Assembly (NCBI RefSeq): GCF_024055715.1 | Contig: NZ_JAMXMV010000005.1 | Span: 186,001-250,000, forward strand | Direction of reading: 5' to 3' | DNA length: 64,000 nucleotides | Source of the DNA: Actinoallomurus soli | GTDB lineage: Bacteria > Actinomycetota > Actinomycetes > Streptosporangiales > Streptosporangiaceae | Shown: one piece after another, positions 42,802-54,410 of the stretch | Layout: every line of letters begins with the position of its first letter | Position numbering within the stretch: the stretch's first letter is position 1 | Made by a program: the position numbers and the translations under genes | The notes under the pieces: model-generated | Told to the model about the DNA's origin: nothing | Database searches by the model: none | What the model saw: the letters and a program-made list of their open reading frames with translations, nothing else

Positions 42802-43770
42802 TCAGTTGCGCCAGACGCGGCGGCGACGGCTGGTGAGGGGCTCGGTCGAGGCCCAGATCCGGCGCCAGTCGGCGGTCTCGCCCGCCTTCTCGCCGTCCTC
42901 ACGGACCGCGCCGGGACGGGTCGGCTGGGAGCCGCCCGGGACCTCGAGGCGGTCGTCGGCCGCGTGGCGCAGCGCGTCGTACCAGCCCAGGTCCTCCTCG
43001 GCCGCGAGCGCGGCGACCGCCTTGGCCATCCGCGCGCGGAACGCCCGGACGTCCTCACCCTCCTCGGGAACGAGGGGACGGCCGTACCGGACGGTGACGC
43101 GCGGCTTGCCCGGCTGCGGCCAGTTGCGCCCGCGCGGCATCGCGGCGTACGAGCCCCGGATCGCGATCGGCACGCACGGGATGCGCTTGGAGACGCACAG
43201 CACGGCCGCGCCGAGCTTGAAGGGGTTCATCCAGCCGTCCTCCGACCGGGTGCCCTCCGGGTACAGCAGCAGGCTCCAGCCGTCGTCGACCAGGTCGAGG
43301 GCCAGGCTGCGCAGCCGCTTTGAACCGTACCGCTCGACGGGGAAGGCGTTGAAGAACACCGCCGTCAGCGTCGCGCGCCAGCGTACGTCGAAGAAGTAGT
43401 CCGACGCGGCGCCGACGGCGACGCGGTTGGCGAACCGCTCCGGCAGCGAGCCGAGGATCAGCGGGGTGTCCAGGTGGCTGGAGTGGTTCGCCACGAACAC
43501 CACCGGACCGCGCACGCCGTCGAGGTACTCCGTGCCCTCGATGACCGGCGTGATCTGCCGCCACGCGACGGGCTTCAGCAGCCCCTTGCGCAGCACGGAC
43601 CGCGCCGCGACCGCGAACGGCGTGCGCGCCCACGCGGTCGGGAAGACCTTCTCCTCCGGCTCGACGACGTGGGGCTCCGCCGAACGGGGCACCGTGGAGC
43701 GCCCGCGCCAGTCTCGCCCGTGCCGCAGCAGGCGAAGCTCCCCACGGACGCTCAATCGTTTCCGGCTCAT
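42802..43770 (-). CDS. PlsC-type lysophospholipid acyltransferase
   Basis: A 322-residue acyltransferase. The catalytic HX4D motif is NHSSHLD (His96, Asp101) and the acceptor-binding motif is PEGTRSEDG (171-179). FNAFPVERYG and IPIAIRGSY-like segments complete the family pattern. It would esterify a fatty acyl group to a lysophosphatidate or other alcohol. The C-terminal 60 residues are charged and probably disordered. Its ATG overlaps the LarA-like stop by 4 bp, so the two are translationally coupled. Last gene of a four-gene operon that also encodes a FAR-HAD fusion and a dehydrogenase, which points to lipid chemistry. Confidence 0.88.
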   Translation of the reverse strand: MSRKRLSVRGELRLLRHGRDWRGRSTVPRSAEPHVVEPEEKVFPTAWARTPFAVAARSVLRKGLLKPVAWRQITPVIEGTEYLDGVRGPVVFVANHSSHLDTPLILGSLPERFANRVAVGAASDYFFDVRWRATLTAVFFNAFPVERYGSKRLRSLALDLVDDGWSLLLYPEGTRSEDGWMNPFKLGAAVLCVSKRIPCVPIAIRGSYAAMPRGRNWPQPGKPRVTVRYGRPLVPEEGEDVRAFRARMAKAVAALAAEEDLGWYDALRHAADDRLEVPGGSQPTRPGAVREDGEKAGETADWRRIWASTEPLTSRRRRVWRN

Positions 43771-45344
43771 CGCACGTCCGCCAGGGCGAGCGGCGGGGCG
43801 TGGAGGTAGGAGATCGACGGGCTGCCGCCGACGGTGTCCTTGGCCATCTCCAGCGCGTCGGCGAGGGTCGTCGCCGAACGGAAGCCCATCCGCGCGGTGG
43901 TCTTGCGGTTGCCGCCGACGAAGATGACGTCGCCGAGGTGCTCCAGCGCGTGCGCCCCCCAGTACCACATGTAGAAGGGGTGGACGCCGTGGTAGGCGTA
44001 GCTGTTGCGGTACAGCTGGATGTACCACGGGTCCGTGGCGAACTGCTCCTCGTACTTCGTCTCCAGGAGCACCGGGTCGGTGCTCTCGGTGAGGATCTCC
44101 TCGAAGAAGTCGATGTAGCTCGGGTGGTGCACCGGGTGGAACTCGTTCGGCACCGGGTGGTAGAAGATCGCCACGCCGCCCTGCCGGACGATCGGCTTGT
44201 TCATGTAGAGGTTGAAGAAGTAGCCGAGCCCGAGCGACATCACCAGGATCGGGTTCATCACCGAGTTGACGTTGTACGGGCAGATGTACGGCAGCCCGTA
44301 GATCGCGATGTCGGACTGGCCGTTCACCTCGGTGCGCTGCTGCCGGTGGACGTTCTGCAGCGTCAGCGGGTGCACCTCGGACTGTAGGCCGGCGTGCACG
44401 CCGGTCACGCCGTACGGCGCGGCGGTGTTCTGCCAGATGCGCCGCCGCGTCTTCTTCGGCATCAGCTCGTTGGCCCGCTTGACCCCGAGGTAGGTCGCCT
44501 GGTCGCGGACGTTCCACTCCCACTCGCGCTTGTTCAGGAAGCCCATCGAGGAGGGGAAGGTGTCGTTGTTGAGCGTCGTCTCGATCGTGAAGACCTTGAC
44601 GTGCTCGTCGATCAGGCCCTTCATCCGCTCGTACGAGTGGTGCATCGCGGAGTTCGGGGGGTCGTTGAAGGAGTTGGAGTGCCGCAGCGTGTGCACGTTG
44701 TGGTGGTGCCGGAGGCTGCGGTAGCTCGCCAGGCCGACCGACACGGACTTCGCGCCGCCGCTCATCGCGGTCAGCGTGATGTTCACGTAGACGATCAGGT
44801 CGCTCTCGGCGGCGCGCCGGTTGATCTCGACGTCCTCCCCGTGGCGGGTCTTGCCCATGTGGAGGAGGTTGTCGCGGTCCTCGGCGTCGTGGTTCTTCAG
44901 GTGCTCGGGGAAGAACGCGCGGAACACCCGGTCGCCGACGGTGCGCCGCAGCTCCGCCGGGGTCATCCGGCGGTGGAGCGCGTTGGCCGCGATCAGCTCG
45001 ACGTCGTCGACGCCCTTGGCCGCCGCCATCTCCAGGACATGCTCGATGATGCGCTGGCGCACGTCCGGGGTCTGCATCTGCGGCAGCGGCAGCGACAGGT
45101 CGTCGAAGACGATCGTGAGCCGCATGCCGGCGCGCAGCAGCTCCGGGAGCGGCTCGGTGCCGTGCGGGTGCAGCAGCGCGTTGCGGATCGCGGCGTCGAC
45201 GTCGCGGATGCCGGGCAGGGAGTCCGGCGGATAGATGACCTTGGACCCGAGCGGCAGCCGCTCCAGCCGGAAGCCCTCGCCCTGGTGCACGACGAGCGGC
45301 GGCGTCCGCTCATCCACATCGAGTACGAAGCCTGGTCTGCTCAC
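43767..45344 (-). CDS. LarA-family (lactate racemase-like, DUF2088) protein
   Basis: A 525-residue homologue of the nickel-pincer (NPN) enzyme LarA (about 425 aa in Lactobacillus), with a longer C-terminus. Conserved by eye: NALHRRMT (His124, matching catalytic His108), SGGAK (Lys199, matching the NPN-linked Lys184) and HHH (His215, matching nickel ligand His200, 16 residues after the lysine in both). The second catalytic histidine (His174, ten residues before the lysine) appears to be Ile189, and the usual DxTRPxP substrate loop reads DDLSLPLP. The substrate is therefore probably not lactate. larE, larB and larC follow 3.7 kb away. GTG start behind AAAGGAA. Confidence 0.82.
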   Translation of the reverse strand: MSRPGFVLDVDERTPPLVVHQGEGFRLERLPLGSKVIYPPDSLPGIRDVDAAIRNALLHPHGTEPLPELLRAGMRLTIVFDDLSLPLPQMQTPDVRQRIIEHVLEMAAAKGVDDVELIAANALHRRMTPAELRRTVGDRVFRAFFPEHLKNHDAEDRDNLLHMGKTRHGEDVEINRRAAESDLIVYVNITLTAMSGGAKSVSVGLASYRSLRHHHNVHTLRHSNSFNDPPNSAMHHSYERMKGLIDEHVKVFTIETTLNNDTFPSSMGFLNKREWEWNVRDQATYLGVKRANELMPKKTRRRIWQNTAAPYGVTGVHAGLQSEVHPLTLQNVHRQQRTEVNGQSDIAIYGLPYICPYNVNSVMNPILVMSLGLGYFFNLYMNKPIVRQGGVAIFYHPVPNEFHPVHHPSYIDFFEEILTESTDPVLLETKYEEQFATDPWYIQLYRNSYAYHGVHPFYMWYWGAHALEHLGDVIFVGGNRKTTARMGFRSATTLADALEMAKDTVGGSPSISYLHAPPLALADVR

Positions 45345-45417: not shown

Positions 45418-46614
45418 TCAGCGCGCCAGGTCGAAGGCGACTTTGACGGTTCCCAGCCGCCCGGAGTCGGCCGCGTGGTTCAGTGCCTCCCGCCAGCGGG
45501 CGAGAGGGTAGGTCGTGCCGACGTAGCCGTCCAGCGGAGCCGAGCCGGCGAGCCGGAGCGCGTCGGCGAAGTCGGCCCCGTCGGCGCCGGAGCAGTACGC
45601 CCCGACCAGCTCCAGCTCCCGGAACCACAGCGGCGTCAGGTCGACGCCGCCGGACGGCATGCCGGACATCACGACGGTACCTCCCGCGCGCGCGAGCCGC
45701 AGGGAGGTGTCCAGACCGCTCGCGCCGCCGGTGCACTCGAAGACGGTGTCGACGCCGCCGAGCAGGAAGTCCGCCCCCATCTCCGGCGTGTGCATCCGCG
45801 CGGTGGTGACGCGCCGCAGCGCGCGCACGGCCTTGCGGGGCTCGATGACGGCGGTGGCGCCGAGCGCCTTGGCCTTCTCCTTCTGGTGACCGTGCTTGGC
45901 GATGACGTACACCGCGCCGACCTGGGTCAGCTCCCGCAGCGCGATCAGCGTCAGCAGCCCGACCGTGCCCGCCCCGACGATCACGGCCGTGGAGTTCGGC
46001 TCGATCGGCACGCGGCGTACGGAGTGCACGGCGCAGGCGAGGGGCTCGGCGAGCACCGCGCGCTCGTCGGGCAGCGCGTCGGGCACGACGTGCAGCTGGC
46101 TGGCGTGCGCGACCATCTGGCGGCTCCAGCCACCGCCGGTGTCGGCGCACGTGCCGGTCTGGATGCCCGCCGAGATGCGGCCTGCGGTGACGTGGTCGCA
46201 GCGGCTCTGCTGGCCCGAGGCGCACCAGCGGCAGGGCTCCATGCCCCGCACGGCGCACGACAGGACCGGGTCGATGACGACGCGGCTGCCCTTCGGGATG
46301 CCGGGCAGCTCGTCCATGGTCCGGCCGACGACCTCGTGTCCCGGCACGAACGGCATGGACGTCATCGGGGACAGGTACGGCGAGGAGTGCCCGGTGAGCA
46401 GGCTCAGGTCCGAACCGCAGATGCCGGACAGGATCGGCGTGACGCGCGTCCAGCCGTCGCCGGGCAGCTCGGGCGCCTGCCGGTTGACCAGGCGCAGCGG
46501 CGCGACGTTCCCGGCGACCATGCCGCTGAGCCTGCTGCCCATCCGGGTGGAGGTCAGGCCGCGGGCGGCGACGAACCGGCCCGGCGAGCGGTGGTATTCG
46601 AGCGCGAGGATCAT
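45418..46614 (-). CDS. Zinc-dependent medium-chain alcohol dehydrogenase
   Basis: A 398-residue MDR enzyme. Catalytic zinc ligands are Cys66 (SGICGSD), His93 and Glu94 (PGHEVVG). The structural zinc site has Cys120, Cys128, Cys131 and Cys139. The NAD-binding loop is VIVGAGTVGLLTLIA (about 233-247). It would oxidise an alcohol or reduce an aldehyde, sugar or threonine-like substrate. ATG 46614 overlaps the end of the FAR-HAD gene (ATGA), and 73 nt separate it from the LarA-like gene. Function may be to supply or remove the hydroxy/keto intermediate handled by the LarA-like protein; that is inference. Confidence 0.87.
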   Translation of the reverse strand: MILALEYHRSPGRFVAARGLTSTRMGSRLSGMVAGNVAPLRLVNRQAPELPGDGWTRVTPILSGICGSDLSLLTGHSSPYLSPMTSMPFVPGHEVVGRTMDELPGIPKGSRVVIDPVLSCAVRGMEPCRWCASGQQSRCDHVTAGRISAGIQTGTCADTGGGWSRQMVAHASQLHVVPDALPDERAVLAEPLACAVHSVRRVPIEPNSTAVIVGAGTVGLLTLIALRELTQVGAVYVIAKHGHQKEKAKALGATAVIEPRKAVRALRRVTTARMHTPEMGADFLLGGVDTVFECTGGASGLDTSLRLARAGGTVVMSGMPSGGVDLTPLWFRELELVGAYCSGADGADFADALRLAGSAPLDGYVGTTYPLARWREALNHAADSGRLGTVKVAFDLAR

Positions 46615-48896
46615 CGGGCGGACCTCGCTCCCACGGTGTCGATCAGCACGTCGCCCCGTCCACGGGTATGGGCGCCCCACTCATGGATGCGCCAGTGCTT
46701 GCGCTTGGCATGGCGGTACAGCGAGGGGTCCGGGTTGACCGCGTTCGCGTTGCCCACCGCCTCCAGCAGCGGCCGGTCGGAGTAGCTGTCCGCGTAGGCG
46801 TACGACTGCGACAGGTCCAGGCCGGTGTCGGCGGCGTGGCGGCGCAGCCACGCCGCCCGCGCCTCGTCCACCAGCGGCGGCGCGTCGAGGTAGCCGGTCA
46901 GCCTGCCGTCGCGCTCGTGCATCCGGCTGGCGACGACCTCGTCGAACAGCGTCGCGAGCGGCTCGACGAACACGTCGATCGTGCCGGTGATGAGGATCGT
47001 CTTGTGCCCGGCCGCGCGGTGCGCCCGGATCCTGCGGACGGCCTCCGGCATGACCCGCTGCAGCACCGCCTCGCCGAGCACGTCCTTGACCAGCGCGTTC
47101 AGCTCGGCGACGTCGGCGCCCTGGTAGCGCCGCAGGAACGCCCGGACGAAGTCTCCCCGGTCGCGCCGTTCGGCCCGCAGGTAGCGGGGGAGCGAGCGGG
47201 CCAGGTCGGCGAGCTCACCGCTCCACTGCGAACGCGGCATCGACGACAGCCGCGCCCACAGGTACGACTCGATGAGGTTCGAGGCGATGATCGTGCCCTC
47301 GAGGTCGAACACCGCGGCCACGTCGGTGCGCTCCGGCAGCACCGGGTCGGCGCTCTTGCGGCCGCCGCCGCGGCCCTTGGAGAAGCCGCGCATCAGCTCG
47401 GTGACGCTGGGGGAGTGCACCTCCTGCAGGTAGTGCTCCCAGTCGATGACCGACGGGTCGAAGCCGTGCTCGTCGACCCGGTCGGCCGGCACCGTACGGT
47501 GCAGCGCGTGCGTGCGGCTGTCGTCGTAGATGACCTCGGCCTTGGTGTACGCCTGGTACAGGTCGGAGTAGCGGCGCAGGAAGTCGAGGTTCGTCTGCTG
47601 CCGGTGCACCGCGGTCATCCACTCGCGCGTCTTGGCCGACGCGGGCAGCCGCAGCAGCGCGCGCTCGGCCGCGGACGTCGCCCGCTCGCTGCTGCTCAGC
47701 ATCATCTCGACCTGACGGCTGCCCGGGAACCGCCACTGCGGAACGCGGATGTGGCCGCGCTCGCCGGCCGGCATCGGGTGCCGCCGGAAGTAGTCGCGGA
47801 CGTTCTCGTACAGGCCGCGGAAGGACAGCGGGTTGCGCGAGCCGGAGCCGACGTGGAAGTAGCCGGGCGTGCCGCGCTCGGGCGGCGTGGCCGCGACCGC
47901 GATCGTGGCGTTGACGACCAGGTCGACCGGGATGATGTCGACGACGCTGTCGGGCAGGCCGGGGAACTCCGGCAGGACGCCGCGCCCGTACGCGATGATC
48001 AGCGGGTCGGCCATCTTGTAGCCGTCGATCCAGCCGGGGTAAGGGTGGCGCAGCGAGCTCTCGACGATCGCCGGGCGGACGATGGACAGCCGCCGCTCGC
48101 CCCACAGCTCCTCGGCGGCGCGCTCGCCCAGGGCCTTGGTGAAGGTGTAGACGTCCGGCCAGCCGAGGCTCTGCGCCCGCGCCCGGCCGTAGTCGACGAG
48201 ACGCTCGGTGACCCACGCCTGCCGGGCCTCCTCGGCGGCCGCGACCACCGACTGCGGACCGGCCTTGCGGTGCTCGCCCTGCGCCCGCGCCATCGACTTG
48301 CGCAGCACCTCCGGGCGCCGTGAGTCGCGCTCGACGTCGGCGTGGGCCGCGAGGGCCTCGCCCAGCTCGGTGCGCCAGTCGACGCCGTGGTCCAGCCGGG
48401 CCTCCGGCACGACGCCCTTGCGGACGCCCGCGACGTACGCGGTGGAGACGTGGACCACGTGCGGGTCGGCGCCGGCCTTGTGCAGCGCCTCGTACAGCGT
48501 CACGACACCGGAGACGTTCGTGCGGAACGCCTCGTCGATCGGCGGGTCGAAGGACACCGTGGACGCGCCGTGGATGACCACGTCGATGTCGGAGGGGAGG
48601 GTCACCTCGCCGAGGTCGCCCTCGATGACGTTGACCCGCTCGGCCGCGATGCGGCGCAGCTCGTCCTCGCCGATCCGCTCCCGCATCGTCCGGAAGACGG
48701 GCTTGCGCAGCAGGCCGTCGAACCGGCGCTGCGCGGACGTGCCGCCGCGCGGCCGGATCAGCACCGAGACGCGAACGCCCGGGTGCGCCGACAGCAGCTT
48801 CTCCAGGGTCGCCTGCCCGAGGAAGCCGGTGGCGCCCGTCAACAGGACGTGGGAGTCACCCAGGGACGGGAACTCGTGAGGTCGGTCTGGCGTCAT
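46611..48896 (-). CDS. Fatty acyl reductase-like SDR fused to HAD-IB phosphatase
   Basis: About 761 residues in two enzymes. Residues 1-370 are an extended SDR of the NAD_binding_4 (male sterility / thioester reductase) type: LLTGATGFLG (18-27), HVSTAYVAG and the Tyr250-x3-Lys254 pair. Residues about 525-735 are a HAD-IB (SerB-like) phosphatase with FDLEGT (Asp531), ITGT and YADSYSDRP. The HAD nucleophile motif has Glu in place of the second Asp, seen in some HAD-IB proteins linked to lipid acyltransferases. The middle region (375-520) is helical. First gene of the operon. ATG 48896 is favoured because of GGAGAA upstream; ATG 48923 is possible. Confidence 0.8.
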   Translation of the reverse strand: MTPDRPHEFPSLGDSHVLLTGATGFLGQATLEKLLSAHPGVRVSVLIRPRGGTSAQRRFDGLLRKPVFRTMRERIGEDELRRIAAERVNVIEGDLGEVTLPSDIDVVIHGASTVSFDPPIDEAFRTNVSGVVTLYEALHKAGADPHVVHVSTAYVAGVRKGVVPEARLDHGVDWRTELGEALAAHADVERDSRRPEVLRKSMARAQGEHRKAGPQSVVAAAEEARQAWVTERLVDYGRARAQSLGWPDVYTFTKALGERAAEELWGERRLSIVRPAIVESSLRHPYPGWIDGYKMADPLIIAYGRGVLPEFPGLPDSVVDIIPVDLVVNATIAVAATPPERGTPGYFHVGSGSRNPLSFRGLYENVRDYFRRHPMPAGERGHIRVPQWRFPGSRQVEMMLSSSERATSAAERALLRLPASAKTREWMTAVHRQQTNLDFLRRYSDLYQAYTKAEVIYDDSRTHALHRTVPADRVDEHGFDPSVIDWEHYLQEVHSPSVTELMRGFSKGRGGGRKSADPVLPERTDVAAVFDLEGTIIASNLIESYLWARLSSMPRSQWSGELADLARSLPRYLRAERRDRGDFVRAFLRRYQGADVAELNALVKDVLGEAVLQRVMPEAVRRIRAHRAAGHKTILITGTIDVFVEPLATLFDEVVASRMHERDGRLTGYLDAPPLVDEARAAWLRRHAADTGLDLSQSYAYADSYSDRPLLEAVGNANAVNPDPSLYRHAKRKHWRIHEWGAHTRGRGDVLIDTVGARSAR

Positions 48897-49055
48897 CCGC
48901 TGTTCTTCTCCGATCATGGGCATGAGCCGTCCCGGCCGCGATCTGACAGGGAAACCCTAACGGTTAATGGACACTCCACGAACGGCCGGACGCGTCACCC
49001 GTCGTTCATGTCTCGCACATCGAACCGCCGGGTCGGCCCGCGGGCCCGTGCGTGG

Positions 49056-49883
49056 TCAGCGTTCGGACGCGGCGAGCCGGTCGTTCATCGAACCGGACCG
49101 GAACACCTCGACGCGGATCGGCGCCGCCGCGAACCCGGCCTCGCGGATCGCGGCGTGCACGGCCTCGTCGTCGCGGGCGCGGTCGACCAGGTCGGGGTCG
49201 ACCTCCAGCCGCACGGCGTCGCCCAGGTCACGGACCCGCAGGTCCCGGACCGCCCCGCCGAACAGCCCGCGCACGGCCGTCTCCGCGCGCTCGATCCGCT
49301 TGAGCCGCGCCGAGGTCACCTCGATGCCGTACGCGACGCGGCTCGCCATGCACGCCGCGGCCGGCTTGTCCCACATCGGCAGGTCCCAGTGCCGGGCGAT
49401 GGCGCGCACCGTGTCCTTGTCCAGGCCGAGGTCGGCCAGGGGCGTACGGGCGCCGCGCTCGGCGGCGGCGCGGATGCCGGGCCGGAACCCGGCGACGACG
49501 TCCGAGGCGTTCGTGCCGGTCGTGATGGTGGAATAGCCCAGGTGGTCCGCGAGCGCGTTGGCGGTGTCGACCAGGACGCTCTTGCAGAAGTAGCAGCGCT
49601 GCGGCCCGTTCTCCCGGTAGCCGGGCACCTCCAGCTCGGACGTGGCGGGCGTGTGATGCGTCACGCCCAGGTCCGCGCAGAACCGCCGCGCCGCGTCGAG
49701 TTCGGCGGCCGGCAGCGACGCCGACACGGCCGTCACGGCGGCGACCTGTTCGGGCCCGAGCGCGCGCGCCGCCGCGGCGAGCACGACACTGGAGTCCACG
49801 CCGCCGGAGAACGCCACCAGCGTTCTGCCGTAGCCTGCCATCTCGGTCAGCAGTGAGTCGGAGAGGACCACGACGTCCACCAT
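49056..49883 (-). CDS. larE: LarE: sulfur-inserting enzyme of NPN cofactor synthesis
   Basis: A 275-residue PP-loop enzyme. SGGVDSS (26-32) binds ATP. Cys178 in the motif PAAACMASR corresponds to the sacrificial Cys176 of L. plantarum LarE, which donates its own sulfur to the pyridinium dicarboxylate precursor. CYFCKS (97-102) is another family feature. The protein acts after LarB and before LarC. It is divergent from larB with only 27 bp between the two ATG codons, and points toward the LarA-like operon. Confidence 0.92.
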   Translation of the reverse strand: MVDVVVLSDSLLTEMAGYGRTLVAFSGGVDSSVVLAAAARALGPEQVAAVTAVSASLPAAELDAARRFCADLGVTHHTPATSELEVPGYRENGPQRCYFCKSVLVDTANALADHLGYSTITTGTNASDVVAGFRPGIRAAAERGARTPLADLGLDKDTVRAIARHWDLPMWDKPAAACMASRVAYGIEVTSARLKRIERAETAVRGLFGGAVRDLRVRDLGDAVRLEVDPDLVDRARDDEAVHAAIREAGFAAAPIRVEVFRSGSMNDRLAASER

Positions 49884-49910: not shown

Positions 49911-50603
49911 ATGACGGTATCTCAGCCGGACGGCGTCGCCGATCTCGGCTTCGCGCGGCTCGACGTGGACCGCGCCGCCCGGACCGGCGACCCGGAGGTG
50001 GTGTTCGGCCAGGGCAAGACGCCCGAGCAGATCGTCACCGCGCTGCGCACCCTGCACGAGGCACACCCGGACCGCGCCGTGCTCGCGACGCGGCTGGCGG
50101 ATGAGGCGATCGCGATGTGCGCGGAGCGGCTGCCGGACGCCGAGGTCGACCCGGTCGGCCGCACGGCGGTCCTGGGCACGGCCGAGACGCACGGGACGGT
50201 CGCCGTCGTCGCCGCCGGCACGTCCGACCTGCCGGTCGTGCGCGAGTGCGCGACCACCGTGCGGGTGTTCGGCGCCGAGCCGGACGAGATCGTGGACGTC
50301 GGCGTGGCGGGCCTGCACCGGCTGCTCGCCCAGCGCGACCGGATCGCCGAGGCCGACGTCGTCGTCGCGGTCGCGGGCATGGAGGCGGCCCTGCCGTCCG
50401 TGCTCGGCGGGCTCGTCGGCGCGCCCCTGATCGCGGTGCCGACGAGCGTCGGCTACGGCTGGCATATGGAGGGCGTCACGGCCTGGCTGGCCACGGTGAA
50501 CAGCTGCGCCCCCGGCATCGTGTCGGTCAACGTCGACAACGGCTTCGGCGCCGGCGTCGCCGCCGCCCGCATCGCCCGCCGCACCGCACGGACGCGCCCG
50601 TGA
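49911..50603 (+). CDS. larB: LarB: NaAD carboxylase/hydrolase of NPN cofactor synthesis
   Basis: A 230-residue protein with an AIRC (PurE-like) C-terminal domain. AAGTSDLPVVREC (about 101-113), PTSVGYG, NSCAPG (Cys199) and NVDNGFGAG are the LarB fingerprints. It carboxylates the pyridinium ring of nicotinic acid adenine dinucleotide and releases AMP. ATG 49911 has GAGGAA 6 nt upstream. Its stop overlaps the larC start (GTGA). Confidence 0.92.
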   Translation: MTVSQPDGVADLGFARLDVDRAARTGDPEVVFGQGKTPEQIVTALRTLHEAHPDRAVLATRLADEAIAMCAERLPDAEVDPVGRTAVLGTAETHGTVAVVAAGTSDLPVVRECATTVRVFGAEPDEIVDVGVAGLHRLLAQRDRIAEADVVVAVAGMEAALPSVLGGLVGAPLIAVPTSVGYGWHMEGVTAWLATVNSCAPGIVSVNVDNGFGAGVAAARIARRTARTRP

Positions 50604-51883
50604 GCCCTTCCGAGGAGCCCATGGGCCCTTCCATGGAGTCAGTGGGCACTTCCGCGGGGCCCGTGGGCCCTTCCGCGGAGACGCGTCCGGCGCGGACGTT
50701 GTGGGTAGATGCGGGCAACGGCGCGGCCGGGGACATGCTGCTCGCCGCCCTGCTGGACGCCGGCGCCGACCCGGAGGCCGTGCGCTCCGGGCTGCGGGGG
50801 CTGGCCGTCGAGCCCATCGACGTCGAGGTGACCCAGGTGCGCCGGCACGGGCTGCGCGCCCTGCACGCCGACGTACGGGCGCCGCGCAGCGACGTCTCGC
50901 GGGACCTCGCCGACGTCACCGCGATCCTCACCGCCGCCGCGCTCCCGGACGAGGCGAGGGCGTTCGCGCTCGCGGTGTTCGAGCGGCTCGCCCGCGCGGA
51001 GGCGCGCGTGCACGGCGTGGCCGTCTCGGAGATCCACTTTCACGAGGTCGGGGCCCTGGACGCGATCGCCGACGTCACCGGCTGCGCCCTCGCCCTGCAC
51101 GACCTCGGCCTGCTCGGGTCCGCCGTGCGCGTCGTGTCGCCGGTCGCGGCCGGCTCCGGCGTCGTGCGGGCCGCGCACGGCCCGCTGCCCGTCCCGGTGC
51201 CCGCCGTGCTGGAGCTGCTCACCGAGGCCGGCGCGCCGCTGCGCTCGCACCCCGCCGCGATGGAGCTGTGCACCCCGACCGGCGCCGCGCTGCTCGCCAC
51301 GCTGGCCACCGGCTGGGGCCCCGCGCCGGACTGCGTGCCGCGCGCCACCGGCACCGGCGCCGGCAGTGCCGACCCCGAGGGCCACCCGAACGTCCTGCGC
51401 GTGCTGATCGGGGAGGCCGCCGGAGCCTCCGGGTGGTCGTCCGCGGAGATGCGGCGCGTCGACACGACCGTGGACGACCTGGACCCGCGGTTGTGGCCCG
51501 ACGTGCTGGAGGCGCTCCGCTCCGCGGGGGCCGCCGACGCCTGGTGCGTGCCCGCGCTCATGCGCAAGGGCCGGCCGGGTCAGGTGCTGAGCGTCCTGGC
51601 GCCGCCGGACCGGCTCGACGCCGTGTGCCGCGTCGTCTTCGAGCAGACGACCACCCTCGGCGTCCGGGTGTCGGCGGTGGAGCGGCGCTCGCTGCGCCGC
51701 GACCAGGTCACGGTGACCGTGGCCGGGGGAGCGACGGTCGCGGTGAAGCGCGGCCTGCTCGGCGGCCGGGTCGTGACCGCGCAGGCGGAGTACGACGACG
51801 CCCGCGCCGCCGCCGAGCGCACCGGCCGTCCCGTGCGCGAGGTGCTCACCGAGGCGCTGACCGCCGCCCGCGCCCTCTCCTGA
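50600..51883 (+). CDS. larC: LarC: nickel insertase of NPN cofactor synthesis
   Basis: A 427-residue LarC encoded by one continuous frame, unlike the split larC1/larC2 of L. plantarum. The domain begins TLWVDAGNGAAGDMLLAALLDAG at about residue 33. IHFHEVGALDAIADVTG and MELCTPTGAALL are family signatures, and the C-terminal domain has RRVDTTVDDLDP and KGRPGQVLSVL. It inserts nickel using CTP. The first 30 residues are a low-complexity stretch coded by a 21-bp repeat. GTG 50600 overlaps the larB stop; ATG 50621 is an alternative. Confidence 0.92.
   Translation: MSPSEEPMGPSMESVGTSAGPVGPSAETRPARTLWVDAGNGAAGDMLLAALLDAGADPEAVRSGLRGLAVEPIDVEVTQVRRHGLRALHADVRAPRSDVSRDLADVTAILTAAALPDEARAFALAVFERLARAEARVHGVAVSEIHFHEVGALDAIADVTGCALALHDLGLLGSAVRVVSPVAAGSGVVRAAHGPLPVPVPAVLELLTEAGAPLRSHPAAMELCTPTGAALLATLATGWGPAPDCVPRATGTGAGSADPEGHPNVLRVLIGEAAGASGWSSAEMRRVDTTVDDLDPRLWPDVLEALRSAGAADAWCVPALMRKGRPGQVLSVLAPPDRLDAVCRVVFEQTTTLGVRVSAVERRSLRRDQVTVTVAGGATVAVKRGLLGGRVVTAQAEYDDARAAAERTGRPVREVLTEALTAARALS
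50606..50689 (+). repeat. 21-bp repeat in the larC N-terminus
   Basis: Four diverged units with CCTTCC or ACTTCC at 50606, 50627, 50648 and 50669. Each encodes roughly Pro/Thr-Ser-x-x-x-x-Gly. Confidence 0.65.
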
Positions 51884-52027: not shown

Positions 52028-52255
52028 ATGACACTGCGGGGCTGCGCGGTCGGGTCGCGTCTCGAGGTCTGCCGGGTCACCGGCGGCCGGCGGCACCGGC
52101 GGCGTCTCATCGAGCTGGGTTTCGTGCGGGGCGCCGTCCTCTCGGTCATCGGCAGGGGGACCATGGGCGGGCTCGTCCTCGCCCTCGGCGACTCGCGGAT
52201 CGCGGTCGACTCGTTCACCGCCGAGACCCTGCTCGTCAAGCCCGCTCATGTCTGA
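52028..52255 (+). CDS. feoA: FeoA, ferrous iron transport accessory protein
   Basis: A 75-residue SH3-like protein: LRGCAVGSRLEVCRVTGG at the start and RLIELGFVRGAVLSVI in the middle, the family core, then LALGDSRIAVDSFTAETLLV. FeoA supports FeoB-mediated Fe(II) uptake at the inner face of the membrane. ATG has GGAGG 6 nt upstream. It overlaps feoB by 8 bp. Confidence 0.9.
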   Translation: MTLRGCAVGSRLEVCRVTGGRRHRRRLIELGFVRGAVLSVIGRGTMGGLVLALGDSRIAVDSFTAETLLVKPAHV

Positions 52256-54410
52256 GCGCCCGCTGACCCGGCTCGTCCTGGAGAAGCCCTGCTGCGACGC
52301 CGACGCCCCGGGCGTCGACGAGGGGCACGCGCGCGTGGCGCTCGTCGGCAACCCCAACGTCGGCAAGTCGACGCTGTTCAACATCCTCACCGGGGCGCGC
52401 CAGCGGGTCGGCAACTGGCCCGGCAAGACCGTGAGCGTCGCGCGCGGCACGTGGCGGACGCCCGACGGCGAGATGACGCTCATCGACCTGCCCGGCACCT
52501 ACAGCCTGCTGCCCGACTCGCCGGACGAGGCGCTGACCCGCGACCTGCTCGTCGACCGGGGCATGGACGACCGCCCCGACGTCGTCGTCCTCACCCTCGA
52601 CTGCTCCAACCTCGCCCGGAACCTCTACCTGCTCGCCCAGGTCATGGAGACCGGCGTCCCGATCGTCGTGGCCCTCACGATGGTCGACATCGCCGAGGGC
52701 CGCGGCATCCGGGTCGACGCCGACCGGTTCGCCGAGCTCATCGGCGCGCCGGTCGTCCCCGTCGTGCCGCGCCAGAACCGCGGGCTGGACGCGCTGCGCG
52801 CGGCCGTCGCGGGCGCGCTCGCCGCGCGCCGCCCGCCGGGCGAGCCGGACCTCGGCGAGGACGTCGAGACGGTCCTGGCGGACGTCGCCGCCCTCCTGCC
52901 CGCCGACGCGCTGCTGCGGTACCCGGAGCGCTGGCTGGCCACCGCCCTCCTCACCGGCGAGACGGTCCCGGGCGTGCCGGAGGAGGTCGGCGCGCGGGCG
53001 CGGGCCCTCGGCGCGGGACTGCTCGCCGACGACGGGACGGACGACCTCGGCGGGCTCGATGACCTCGACGACCTTGAGATCATCGTCGCCGAGCAGCGGT
53101 ACGCCTGGGCGCACCGGCTGATCGCCGAGACGGTCCGCCGGAAGAACGACGTACGCGCCACCGTGTCGGACCGGGTGGACCGGCTGCTGACCTCCCGCTG
53201 GGTCGGCCTGCCGATCTTCTTCCTGGTCATGTGGGGCGTGTTCATCCTCACGACGAAGATCGCGGCACCGCTCCAGACCGGCCTGCAGGACCTCATCGAC
53301 GGCCCGGTCACCACGGGGGCGGCGCACGCCCTGCGCGGGATGTCGGCTCCGGGCTGGCTGTCCGGCCTGGTGCTGAACGGCATCATCGGCGGCGTCGGCC
53401 AGCTCCTCAGCTTCGTTCCGCTGATGGCGATCATGTTCGTGCTGCTGTCGGTGCTGGAGGACTCCGGTTACATGGCGCGCGCGGCGTTCGTCGTCGACCG
53501 GCTGATGCGCCTGATCGGCCTGCCGGGCCGGGCGTTCCTGCCGCTGGTCGTCGGGTTCGGCTGCAACGTGCCCGCCCTGGCCGGCACGCGCATCCTCGCC
53601 GACCGGCGGCACCGGCTCCTGACCGGCCTGCTGATCCCCTTCGTGAGCTGCAGCGCACGCCTCACCGTGTACGTCCTGGTGGCGGGCGTCTTCTTCGGCA
53701 GTAACGCGGGCACCGTGGTGTTCGCGATGTACGTCCTGTCCATCGTCCTGGTCGTCGGCATGGGCCTGCTGCTGCGGGGCACGCTGTTCCGCGGGATGAG
53801 CTACGAACCACTGGTCCTGGACCTGCCGCCGTACCGCCTGCCGACCCTGCGGGTCATCGGCACGCAGACCTGGCAGAAGCTCTGGGCGTTCCTGCGGACC
53901 GCGAGCGGCCTCATCGTCGCGACGGTCACGGTGGTGTGGCTCTTCGCCTCCATCCCGGCGGGCGGCGGCCACGGCGGGTTCGGCCGGACCCCGATCGAGC
54001 ACAGCCTGTTCGGGAGCACCGCGCGGGCGGTCGCCCCGGCGTTCGCCCCTGCGGGGTTCGGTGACTGGCATCCGTCCGCGGCGCTGATCACCGGCTTCGT
54101 GGCGAAGGAGGCCGTGGTGTCCACGGTCGCCCAGACCTACAGCATGAGCGAGCCGTCGGACAACCACCGGGCCGGGAGCCTCGGCCCGGCCATGCGGCAG
54201 ACGTTCGAGCGGACCTCCCACGGCCATCCGATCCCGGCCGTACTGGCGTTCATGGTCTTCCTGCTCGCGTACACCCCGTGCATGACGACCGTCGCGGCCC
54301 AGCGCGCCGAACTCGGCGGCAGGATGACCCTGTTCGGCATCGGCATGCAGCTGGTGGTCGCCTGGCTCCTCGCGGTCGCCGTCTTCCAGATCGGAGCGCT
54401 GTTCCTGTGA
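52248..54410 (+). CDS. feoB: FeoB, ferrous iron permease
   Basis: A 720-residue protein. The N-terminal G domain has GNPNVGKST (G1), DLPGTYSL (G3) and a helical GDI-like region. The membrane part has two Gate regions, LSFVPLMAIMFVLLSVLEDSGYMARAAFVVDRLM and PLVVGFGCNVPAL, with the conserved GCNVPA cysteine, and a C-terminal core with YTPCMTTVAA. It takes up Fe(II) at the cytoplasmic membrane. A His-rich loop (PAGGGHGGFG) lies before the last helices. The start overlaps feoA. Confidence 0.95.
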   Translation: MSERPLTRLVLEKPCCDADAPGVDEGHARVALVGNPNVGKSTLFNILTGARQRVGNWPGKTVSVARGTWRTPDGEMTLIDLPGTYSLLPDSPDEALTRDLLVDRGMDDRPDVVVLTLDCSNLARNLYLLAQVMETGVPIVVALTMVDIAEGRGIRVDADRFAELIGAPVVPVVPRQNRGLDALRAAVAGALAARRPPGEPDLGEDVETVLADVAALLPADALLRYPERWLATALLTGETVPGVPEEVGARARALGAGLLADDGTDDLGGLDDLDDLEIIVAEQRYAWAHRLIAETVRRKNDVRATVSDRVDRLLTSRWVGLPIFFLVMWGVFILTTKIAAPLQTGLQDLIDGPVTTGAAHALRGMSAPGWLSGLVLNGIIGGVGQLLSFVPLMAIMFVLLSVLEDSGYMARAAFVVDRLMRLIGLPGRAFLPLVVGFGCNVPALAGTRILADRRHRLLTGLLIPFVSCSARLTVYVLVAGVFFGSNAGTVVFAMYVLSIVLVVGMGLLLRGTLFRGMSYEPLVLDLPPYRLPTLRVIGTQTWQKLWAFLRTASGLIVATVTVVWLFASIPAGGGHGGFGRTPIEHSLFGSTARAVAPAFAPAGFGDWHPSAALITGFVAKEAVVSTVAQTYSMSEPSDNHRAGSLGPAMRQTFERTSHGHPIPAVLAFMVFLLAYTPCMTTVAAQRAELGGRMTLFGIGMQLVVAWLLAVAVFQIGALFL

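Follow-up and report, generated by a model that had tools for sequence, protein, structure and literature searches.

A LarA homologue without the loop histidine is encoded in a conserved actinobacterial operon with fatty acyl-CoA reductase, alcohol dehydrogenase and acyltransferase genes

In lactate racemase (LarA), a hydride is passed to C4 of the nickel-pincer nucleotide (NPN) cofactor and a histidine acts as base. Several LarA homologues that lack the second catalytic histidine, His174, have been described. Groups 14 and 15 were reported in 2020 to be without it (PMC7583248, PMC12611868), and one member of group 14, the Frankia sp. LarAH14, was assayed alone and was inactive on seven hydroxy-acid reactions (Desguin 2020, PMC7583248). 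Structures exist for an Asn-bearing sister group of the His-less LarAs (PMC12611868), and in the case of LarA Sp, which like LarA Bw has one catalytic histidine, cryo-EM revealed substrate-site density near His115, His306, Tyr307 and His401 (PMC12611868). Published proposals are a shift of the hydride to a neighbouring site within a single enantiomer (PMC7583248) and a racemase that works one way (PMC12611868); the function of single-histidine LarAs is an open question in this recent literature. Because His174-less groups and an inactive Frankia member have already been published, the altered active site described below is already known and is not a discovery. A first-pass annotation of the DNA analysed here had suggested hydride transfer or one-way oxidation by a LarA relative without the usual second base; the protein is indeed such a relative, but those chemistries had already been published in similar form.

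The window, a stretch of 64,000 nucleotides from Actinoallomurus soli, carries the gene in question on its minus strand, which the first-pass annotation had left unstated. The gene is real: an open reading frame of 525 codons begins with GTG and is preceded by a GGAAAGGA-like ribosome site, and the plus-strand frames that overlap it are taken as ordinary high-GC shadow ORFs. The protein contains a Lar_N domain (PF09861, 4.7e-42) and covers the whole NCBIfam profile NF052592 (LarAH_14_15_16, positions 1-520) with 919.8 bits, above the cut-off of 740 bits. It reaches only 77.9 bits with the lactate racemase profile NF033504, below the threshold of 460 bits, and of the two catalytic histidines of lactate racemase it has only His124 in the classical positions. 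Membership of the LarA family was thus borne out, and the protein clearly belongs to the LarAH14/15/16 group, which itself has no known activity. In a phylogenetic tree the group-14 sequences formed a single clade, separate from 19 two-histidine LarAs, with 100/100 support. The genome of A. soli encodes two further Lar_N genes, one of which exceeds the lactate racemase cut-off.

An AlphaFold2 model built from a 48-sequence input (pLDDT 93.4) was compared with solved structures. LarA chains headed the list with Z scores from 23.6 to 39.4, unrelated matches with Z below 7 being disregarded. The two closest chains were both single-histidine enzymes, 9q3k (27% identity, rmsd 2.5 over 450 residues, Z 39.4) and 9q3j (Z 36.1); two-histidine LarAs ranked behind (9eia, Z 31.4; L. 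plantarum LarA 5huq, Z 29.3). The LarA Sp and LarA Bw structures (9q2u, 9q3k, 9q3j; PMC12611868) are therefore the nearest solved relatives by fold, but they share only 24-27% identity with the A. soli protein and belong to a sugar-metabolism context. Residues 16-525 of the model aligned with residues 2-476 of 9q3k, and residues 14-525 with residues 1-426 of 5huq. A C-terminus about 100 residues longer than in lactate racemase had been claimed; the extra length stands, but since the structure alignments reach the C-terminus of the model and match it to the C-terminal parts of LarA structures, a C-terminal extension is ruled out and the additional residues are internal, the largest piece lying at about residues 262-311.

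The residues that handle the cofactor are kept. His124, Lys199 and His215 pair with His108, Lys184 and His200 of LarA, as the first-pass annotation had stated by eye, and do not vary among 97 members of the group or in the 7 sister sequences; Asp72 is likewise retained as an invariant Asp82. The substrate loop was also correctly seen to be altered, DDLSLPLP standing in place of DxTRPxP. In our alignments the motif reads D82-L-S-L-P-L-P and Arg75 of LarA pairs with Leu85, a position occupied by Leu or Ile in 95 of the 97 members. In the Isosphaera enzyme, the equivalent of Arg75 binds the phosphate of NPN as well as the carboxylate of the substrate (PMC12611868). LarA Sp and LarA Bw have Lys76 at this place. 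Compared with L. plantarum LarA and the other two-histidine enzymes, the A. soli protein thus shares the fold and the equivalents of Asp72, His108, Lys184 and His200, but it lacks both His174 and Arg75.

Compared with LarA, the loop in which His174 would lie has lost four residues, and no histidine is present at residues 183-197 in any of the 105 sequences aligned. The second catalytic histidine had been said to be replaced by Ile189. Its absence was confirmed, but the naming of Ile189 is unsafe, because it came from an ungapped count back from Lys199 across a loop that is shorter by four residues. The exact substitute depends on the alignment: in a profile-profile comparison (hhalign) with the 19 two-histidine LarAs His174 falls in a gap, whereas HMMER places the His174 of L. 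plantarum LarA opposite residue 190, a position held by Asn in 84 of the 105 sequences and by Thr in 19, the A. soli protein among the latter. Residue 188 is Asn in all members of groups 1 and 2, and residue 189 is Ile, Val or Leu across relatives. LarA Sp and LarA Bw differ in this region, as their full-length loop carries an invariant Asn (185/187) ten residues before the cofactor lysine, where the A. soli protein has residue 189.

A candidate for the second acid/base lies in the C-terminal domain. Sequence (phmmer) and profile alignments matched Tyr307 and His401 of LarA Sp to Tyr357 and His455, both active-site residues thus having counterparts, while His306 of LarA Sp corresponds to Pro356. 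Further information came from three distant LarA-like paralogues that lack equivalents of Asp82, His124, Lys199 and His215. These three have also lost Tyr357, Asn378, His407, His455, Tyr461 and Trp462, and retain His325 and His452. The six residues lost together with the cofactor residues are therefore probable pocket residues. On the strength of the LarA Sp alignment and of this pattern of loss, His455 is a candidate for a relocated acid/base. The earlier idea of a single-base enzyme is right as to the usual position, but "single" may be too strong, as the invariant His455 aligns with a substrate-site residue of LarA Sp.

Features of the LarAH locus. Positions refer to the window; residue numbers refer to the LarAH protein.
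Feature	Position	Strand	Basis or remark
PlsC-type 1-acyl-glycerol-phosphate acyltransferase	42802..43770	-	PF01553 9.9e-16 (longer ORF); 5kym TmPlsC 8e-16; HX4D and EGxR invariant
LarA homologue, LarAH14/15/16 group	43767..45344	-	525 aa, GTG start; NF052592 919.8 bits; PF09861 4.7e-42
His455, candidate second acid/base	43980..43982	-	Aligned with His401 in the LarA Sp active site; no variation in groups 1 and 2; replaced by Leu in cofactor-less paralogues
Tyr357	44274..44276	-	Aligned with Tyr307 in the LarA Sp active site (sequence and profile alignment); lost in cofactor-less paralogues
Largest extra internal segment compared with LarA, around residues 262-311	44412..44561	-	hhalign; HMMER match interrupted there
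His215, nickel-ligand histidine (LarA His200)	44700..44702	-	Alignments to LarA; invariant
Lys199, cofactor-link lysine (LarA Lys184)	44748..44750	-	Alignments to LarA; invariant
Shortened loop, residues 183-197	44754..44798	-	Devoid of histidine; residue 188 always Asn in groups 1 and 2; residue 190 Thr here, Asn in most relatives
His124, counterpart of the catalytic His108 in LarA	44973..44975	-	Invariant in 97+7 relatives; alignments to PDB LarAs
D82-LSLPLP motif, residues 82-88	45081..45101	-	Asp72 retained; Leu85 in place of Arg75 (phosphate/carboxylate binder)
Zn medium-chain dehydrogenase, ketose reductase/sorbitol dehydrogenase-like	45418..46614	-	Zn ligands C66, H93, E94 and structural cysteines invariant
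Fatty acyl-CoA reductase fused to HAD-IB phosphatase (FAR-HAD)	46611..48923	-	PF07993 and PF12710; 7eoz 5e-52
larE, NPN sulfur insertase	49056..49883	-	TIGR00268 274 bits, cut-off 150
larB, divergent from larE	49911..50603	+	NF033503 252 bits, cut-off 175
larC, start uncertain	50600..51883	+	PF01969 1.2e-120; LarC1 and LarC2 equivalogs

The LarAH gene is part of an operon, which was missing from the first-pass annotation and which, with its FAR-HAD, alcohol dehydrogenase (ADH) and PlsC genes, is the strongest evidence of this analysis. On the minus strand the order is larE, FAR-HAD, Zn alcohol dehydrogenase, LarAH and PlsC, with larB and larC divergent. larE lies 132 bp upstream of FAR-HAD, the FAR-HAD stop overlaps the dehydrogenase start by ATGA, and the LarAH stop and the PlsC start share another ATGA. 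The FAR part resembles the fatty acyl-CoA reductase 7eoz end to end (residues 21-525), the dehydrogenase is nearest to 4ej6, a putative zinc-binding dehydrogenase, and to the ketose reductase 1e3j, and the closest solved structure to PlsC is 5kym, a 1-acyl-sn-glycerol-3-phosphate acyltransferase. Catalytic residues are conserved in all operon partners. HAD motif I of FAR-HAD (window 47270-47330) reads FDLEGT, Glu replacing the second Asp; of 81 relatives, 25 have Glu at this position and 56 have Asp. A gene for a FeoB-type ferrous iron transporter adjoins larC (window 52248-54410, plus strand) and is kept in the near relative L004. The adjacent larE, larB and larC genes give indirect, neighbourhood-based support for the use of NPN by the LarAH protein.

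A scan of genome contigs yielded more than 500 relatives, the best 80 of which were all actinobacterial, and the gene order of the operon recurred in essentially all of these 80. Among 106 loci examined, HAD was present in all 94 that offered room for it, ADH in 101 of 103 with room, and PlsC in 95 of the 106. The three genes were always on the LarAH strand, with median gaps between matched regions of 52 and 30 nt. ADH was not found in two loci (L030 and L137). PlsC was missing from seven loci although each left over 1 kb for it; a single family accounts for four of these seven. In one lineage, also without PlsC, protoglobin and GAF-domain genes lie between the dehydrogenase and LarAH (L105:10579-12323). 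Across 396 actinobacterial genomes, 88 had both LarAH14 and FAR-HAD, 4 had LarAH only, 5 had FAR-HAD only and 299 had neither (Fisher p 2e-76, in a test that ignores kinship). The five genomes with one gene only that were inspected (G216, G387, G259, G040 and G345) do not qualify as real exceptions, as they run off contig ends; the remaining four (G277, G394, G064 and G354) are of low completeness or at contig edges. Outside the four operon genes and larBCE, the search for conserved genes brought up only local synteny.

In literature searches we found no LarA in the context of a FAR, an acyltransferase or DUF2088. The Frankia LarAH14 falls in the same NCBIfam group by name; Frankia orthologues in our scan were 63-68% identical to the A. 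soli protein and shared the FAR-HAD/ADH/PlsC order where the contig allowed. No mention of the group-14 operon was found in the text consulted of PMC7583248. The myxobacterial elb and MXAN_1674-1676 ether-lipid operons (PMC9131029) likewise bring FAR-type, HAD-type and acyltransferase modules together for lipid synthesis, but they include no LarA and have ACS/ACP or AGPS modules of their own that are missing here, the resemblance being one of module content only.

The cofactor genes larE, larB and larC adjoin the operon in A. soli and in about 27 loci, and larB was found in 80 of 92 genomes with LarAH14 versus 152 of 304 without. Neither larB nor larC was detected in eight LarAH14 genomes (G084, G095, G106, G160, G181, G213, G263 and G294), several of whose assemblies are more than 90% complete, and the LarAH proteins of all eight retain Lys199, His124 and His215. 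Missing contigs would suffice to explain this, or there may be another source of cofactor. Sister LarAHs, about 40% identical, have the same His/Lys/Asn set and no FAR-HAD operon, and the link with FAR-HAD is therefore a trait of the group-14 clade. A family III CoA-transferase gene lies directly upstream in four of seven sister loci (L095, L096, L097 and L100), and in another (L098) LarAH is beside a pyruvate-formate-lyase-like glycyl-radical enzyme. The three LarA-like genes without any NPN residue equivalent (L102, L103 and L104) are about 26% identical and possibly represent a cofactor-free offshoot of the LarA fold; among their neighbours are genes for DNA polymerase I (L102) and for phosphofructokinase (L103).

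We consider it plausible, though short of probable, that LarAH14 is an NPN enzyme that performs an internal hydride transfer on a hydroxylated, probably non-carboxylate precursor in the lipid pathway encoded by the operon, with His455 or His407 as second acid/base. The FAR domain would make a fatty aldehyde or alcohol, the HAD domain would take off a phosphate, PlsC would attach an acyl chain, and the ketose-reductase-type ADH and LarAH14 would work on a hydroxyl-bearing precursor between these steps. His124 would accept a proton and C4 of NPN a hydride, which would return within the same molecule, either to the opposite face or to an adjacent carbon, His455 (or His407) of the C-terminal domain being the likely replacement for the lost loop histidine. 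The net outcome would be an internal-redox isomerisation or epimerisation and not a net oxidation. The substrate would be a neutral alcohol, a polyol or a lipid intermediate: it is probably not a simple 2-hydroxy acid, because the arginine that holds the carboxylate in LarA is replaced by Leu or Ile, and it is probably a lipid precursor since the pathway combines a fatty acyl-CoA reductase, a phosphatase, a polyol-type dehydrogenase and an acyltransferase. The inactivity on hydroxy acids of the Frankia LarAH14, the one group member for which an assay was found in the literature, fits a non-acid substrate but does not prove it. A more specific version, in which the compound isomerised by the nickel-pincer enzyme is a neutral intermediate (fatty alcohol, polyol or lipid) and not a 2-hydroxy acid, with the C-terminal His455 as second acid/base, within an undescribed and widespread actinobacterial lipid pathway, is possible but doubtful. 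Against the lipid reading stand the LarAH14 genomes without detectable larB or larC, the lineages without PlsC and the fact that not every FAR acts on long-chain substrates; moreover, the chemistry need not be lipid-specific, as the sister LarAHs adjoin a CoA-transferase or a glycyl-radical enzyme instead.

Other readings were weighed against the same evidence. In line with the proposal for LarA Sp and Bw, LarAH14 could racemise or epimerise 2-hydroxy acids in one direction, accepting only the D-type substrate via His124 and releasing the other form, for instance a 2-hydroxy fatty acid or thioester then reduced by FAR. All characterised LarAs use 2-hydroxy acids (PMC7583248, PMC11770544), the NCBIfam name for NF052592 is hydroxyacid isomerase, a 2-hydroxyacyl thioester could be reduced by the FAR partner and CoA-transferases adjoin sister LarAHs; however, the loss of Arg75 in nearly all members and the seven negative Frankia assays make this rather unlikely, and the Lys298 equivalent of LarA is also absent from some groups of unknown specificity (PMC7583248). 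A net oxidoreductase or hydride shuttle, in the spirit of the one-way oxidation suggested in the first-pass annotation, would hand the NPN hydride from one substrate to a different carrier or to a partner, for instance the ADH product, with no stereocentre inverted; it would suit both the one histidine in the classical positions and the near-constant dehydrogenase. We regard such a net oxidoreductase as unlikely, given the two loci without ADH and the lack of any conserved gene for an electron carrier around the operon and larBCE; the literature searched contained no case of net oxidation by an NPN enzyme. Finally, the genomes without detectable larB and larC and the existence of cofactor-less LarA-like paralogues would suit a structural or regulatory protein that no longer uses the cofactor, which is highly improbable in view of the invariance of Lys199, His215 and His124 even where larBC are lacking, of the larE/B/C genes beside the operon, and of the fact that true cofactor-less paralogues lose all those residues.

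The conserved operon narrows the partner enzymes to a few and points to a class of pathway that can be tested, in culturable lineages such as Nocardioides, Kribbella and Actinomadura. The association of actinobacterial LarAH14 with genes for fatty-alcohol formation and acyl transfer, almost without exception, points to a putative nickel-dependent step in lipid synthesis. If this is true, the NPN cofactor would reach beyond hydroxy-acid racemisation, and lipid synthesis would gain a nickel-dependent step.
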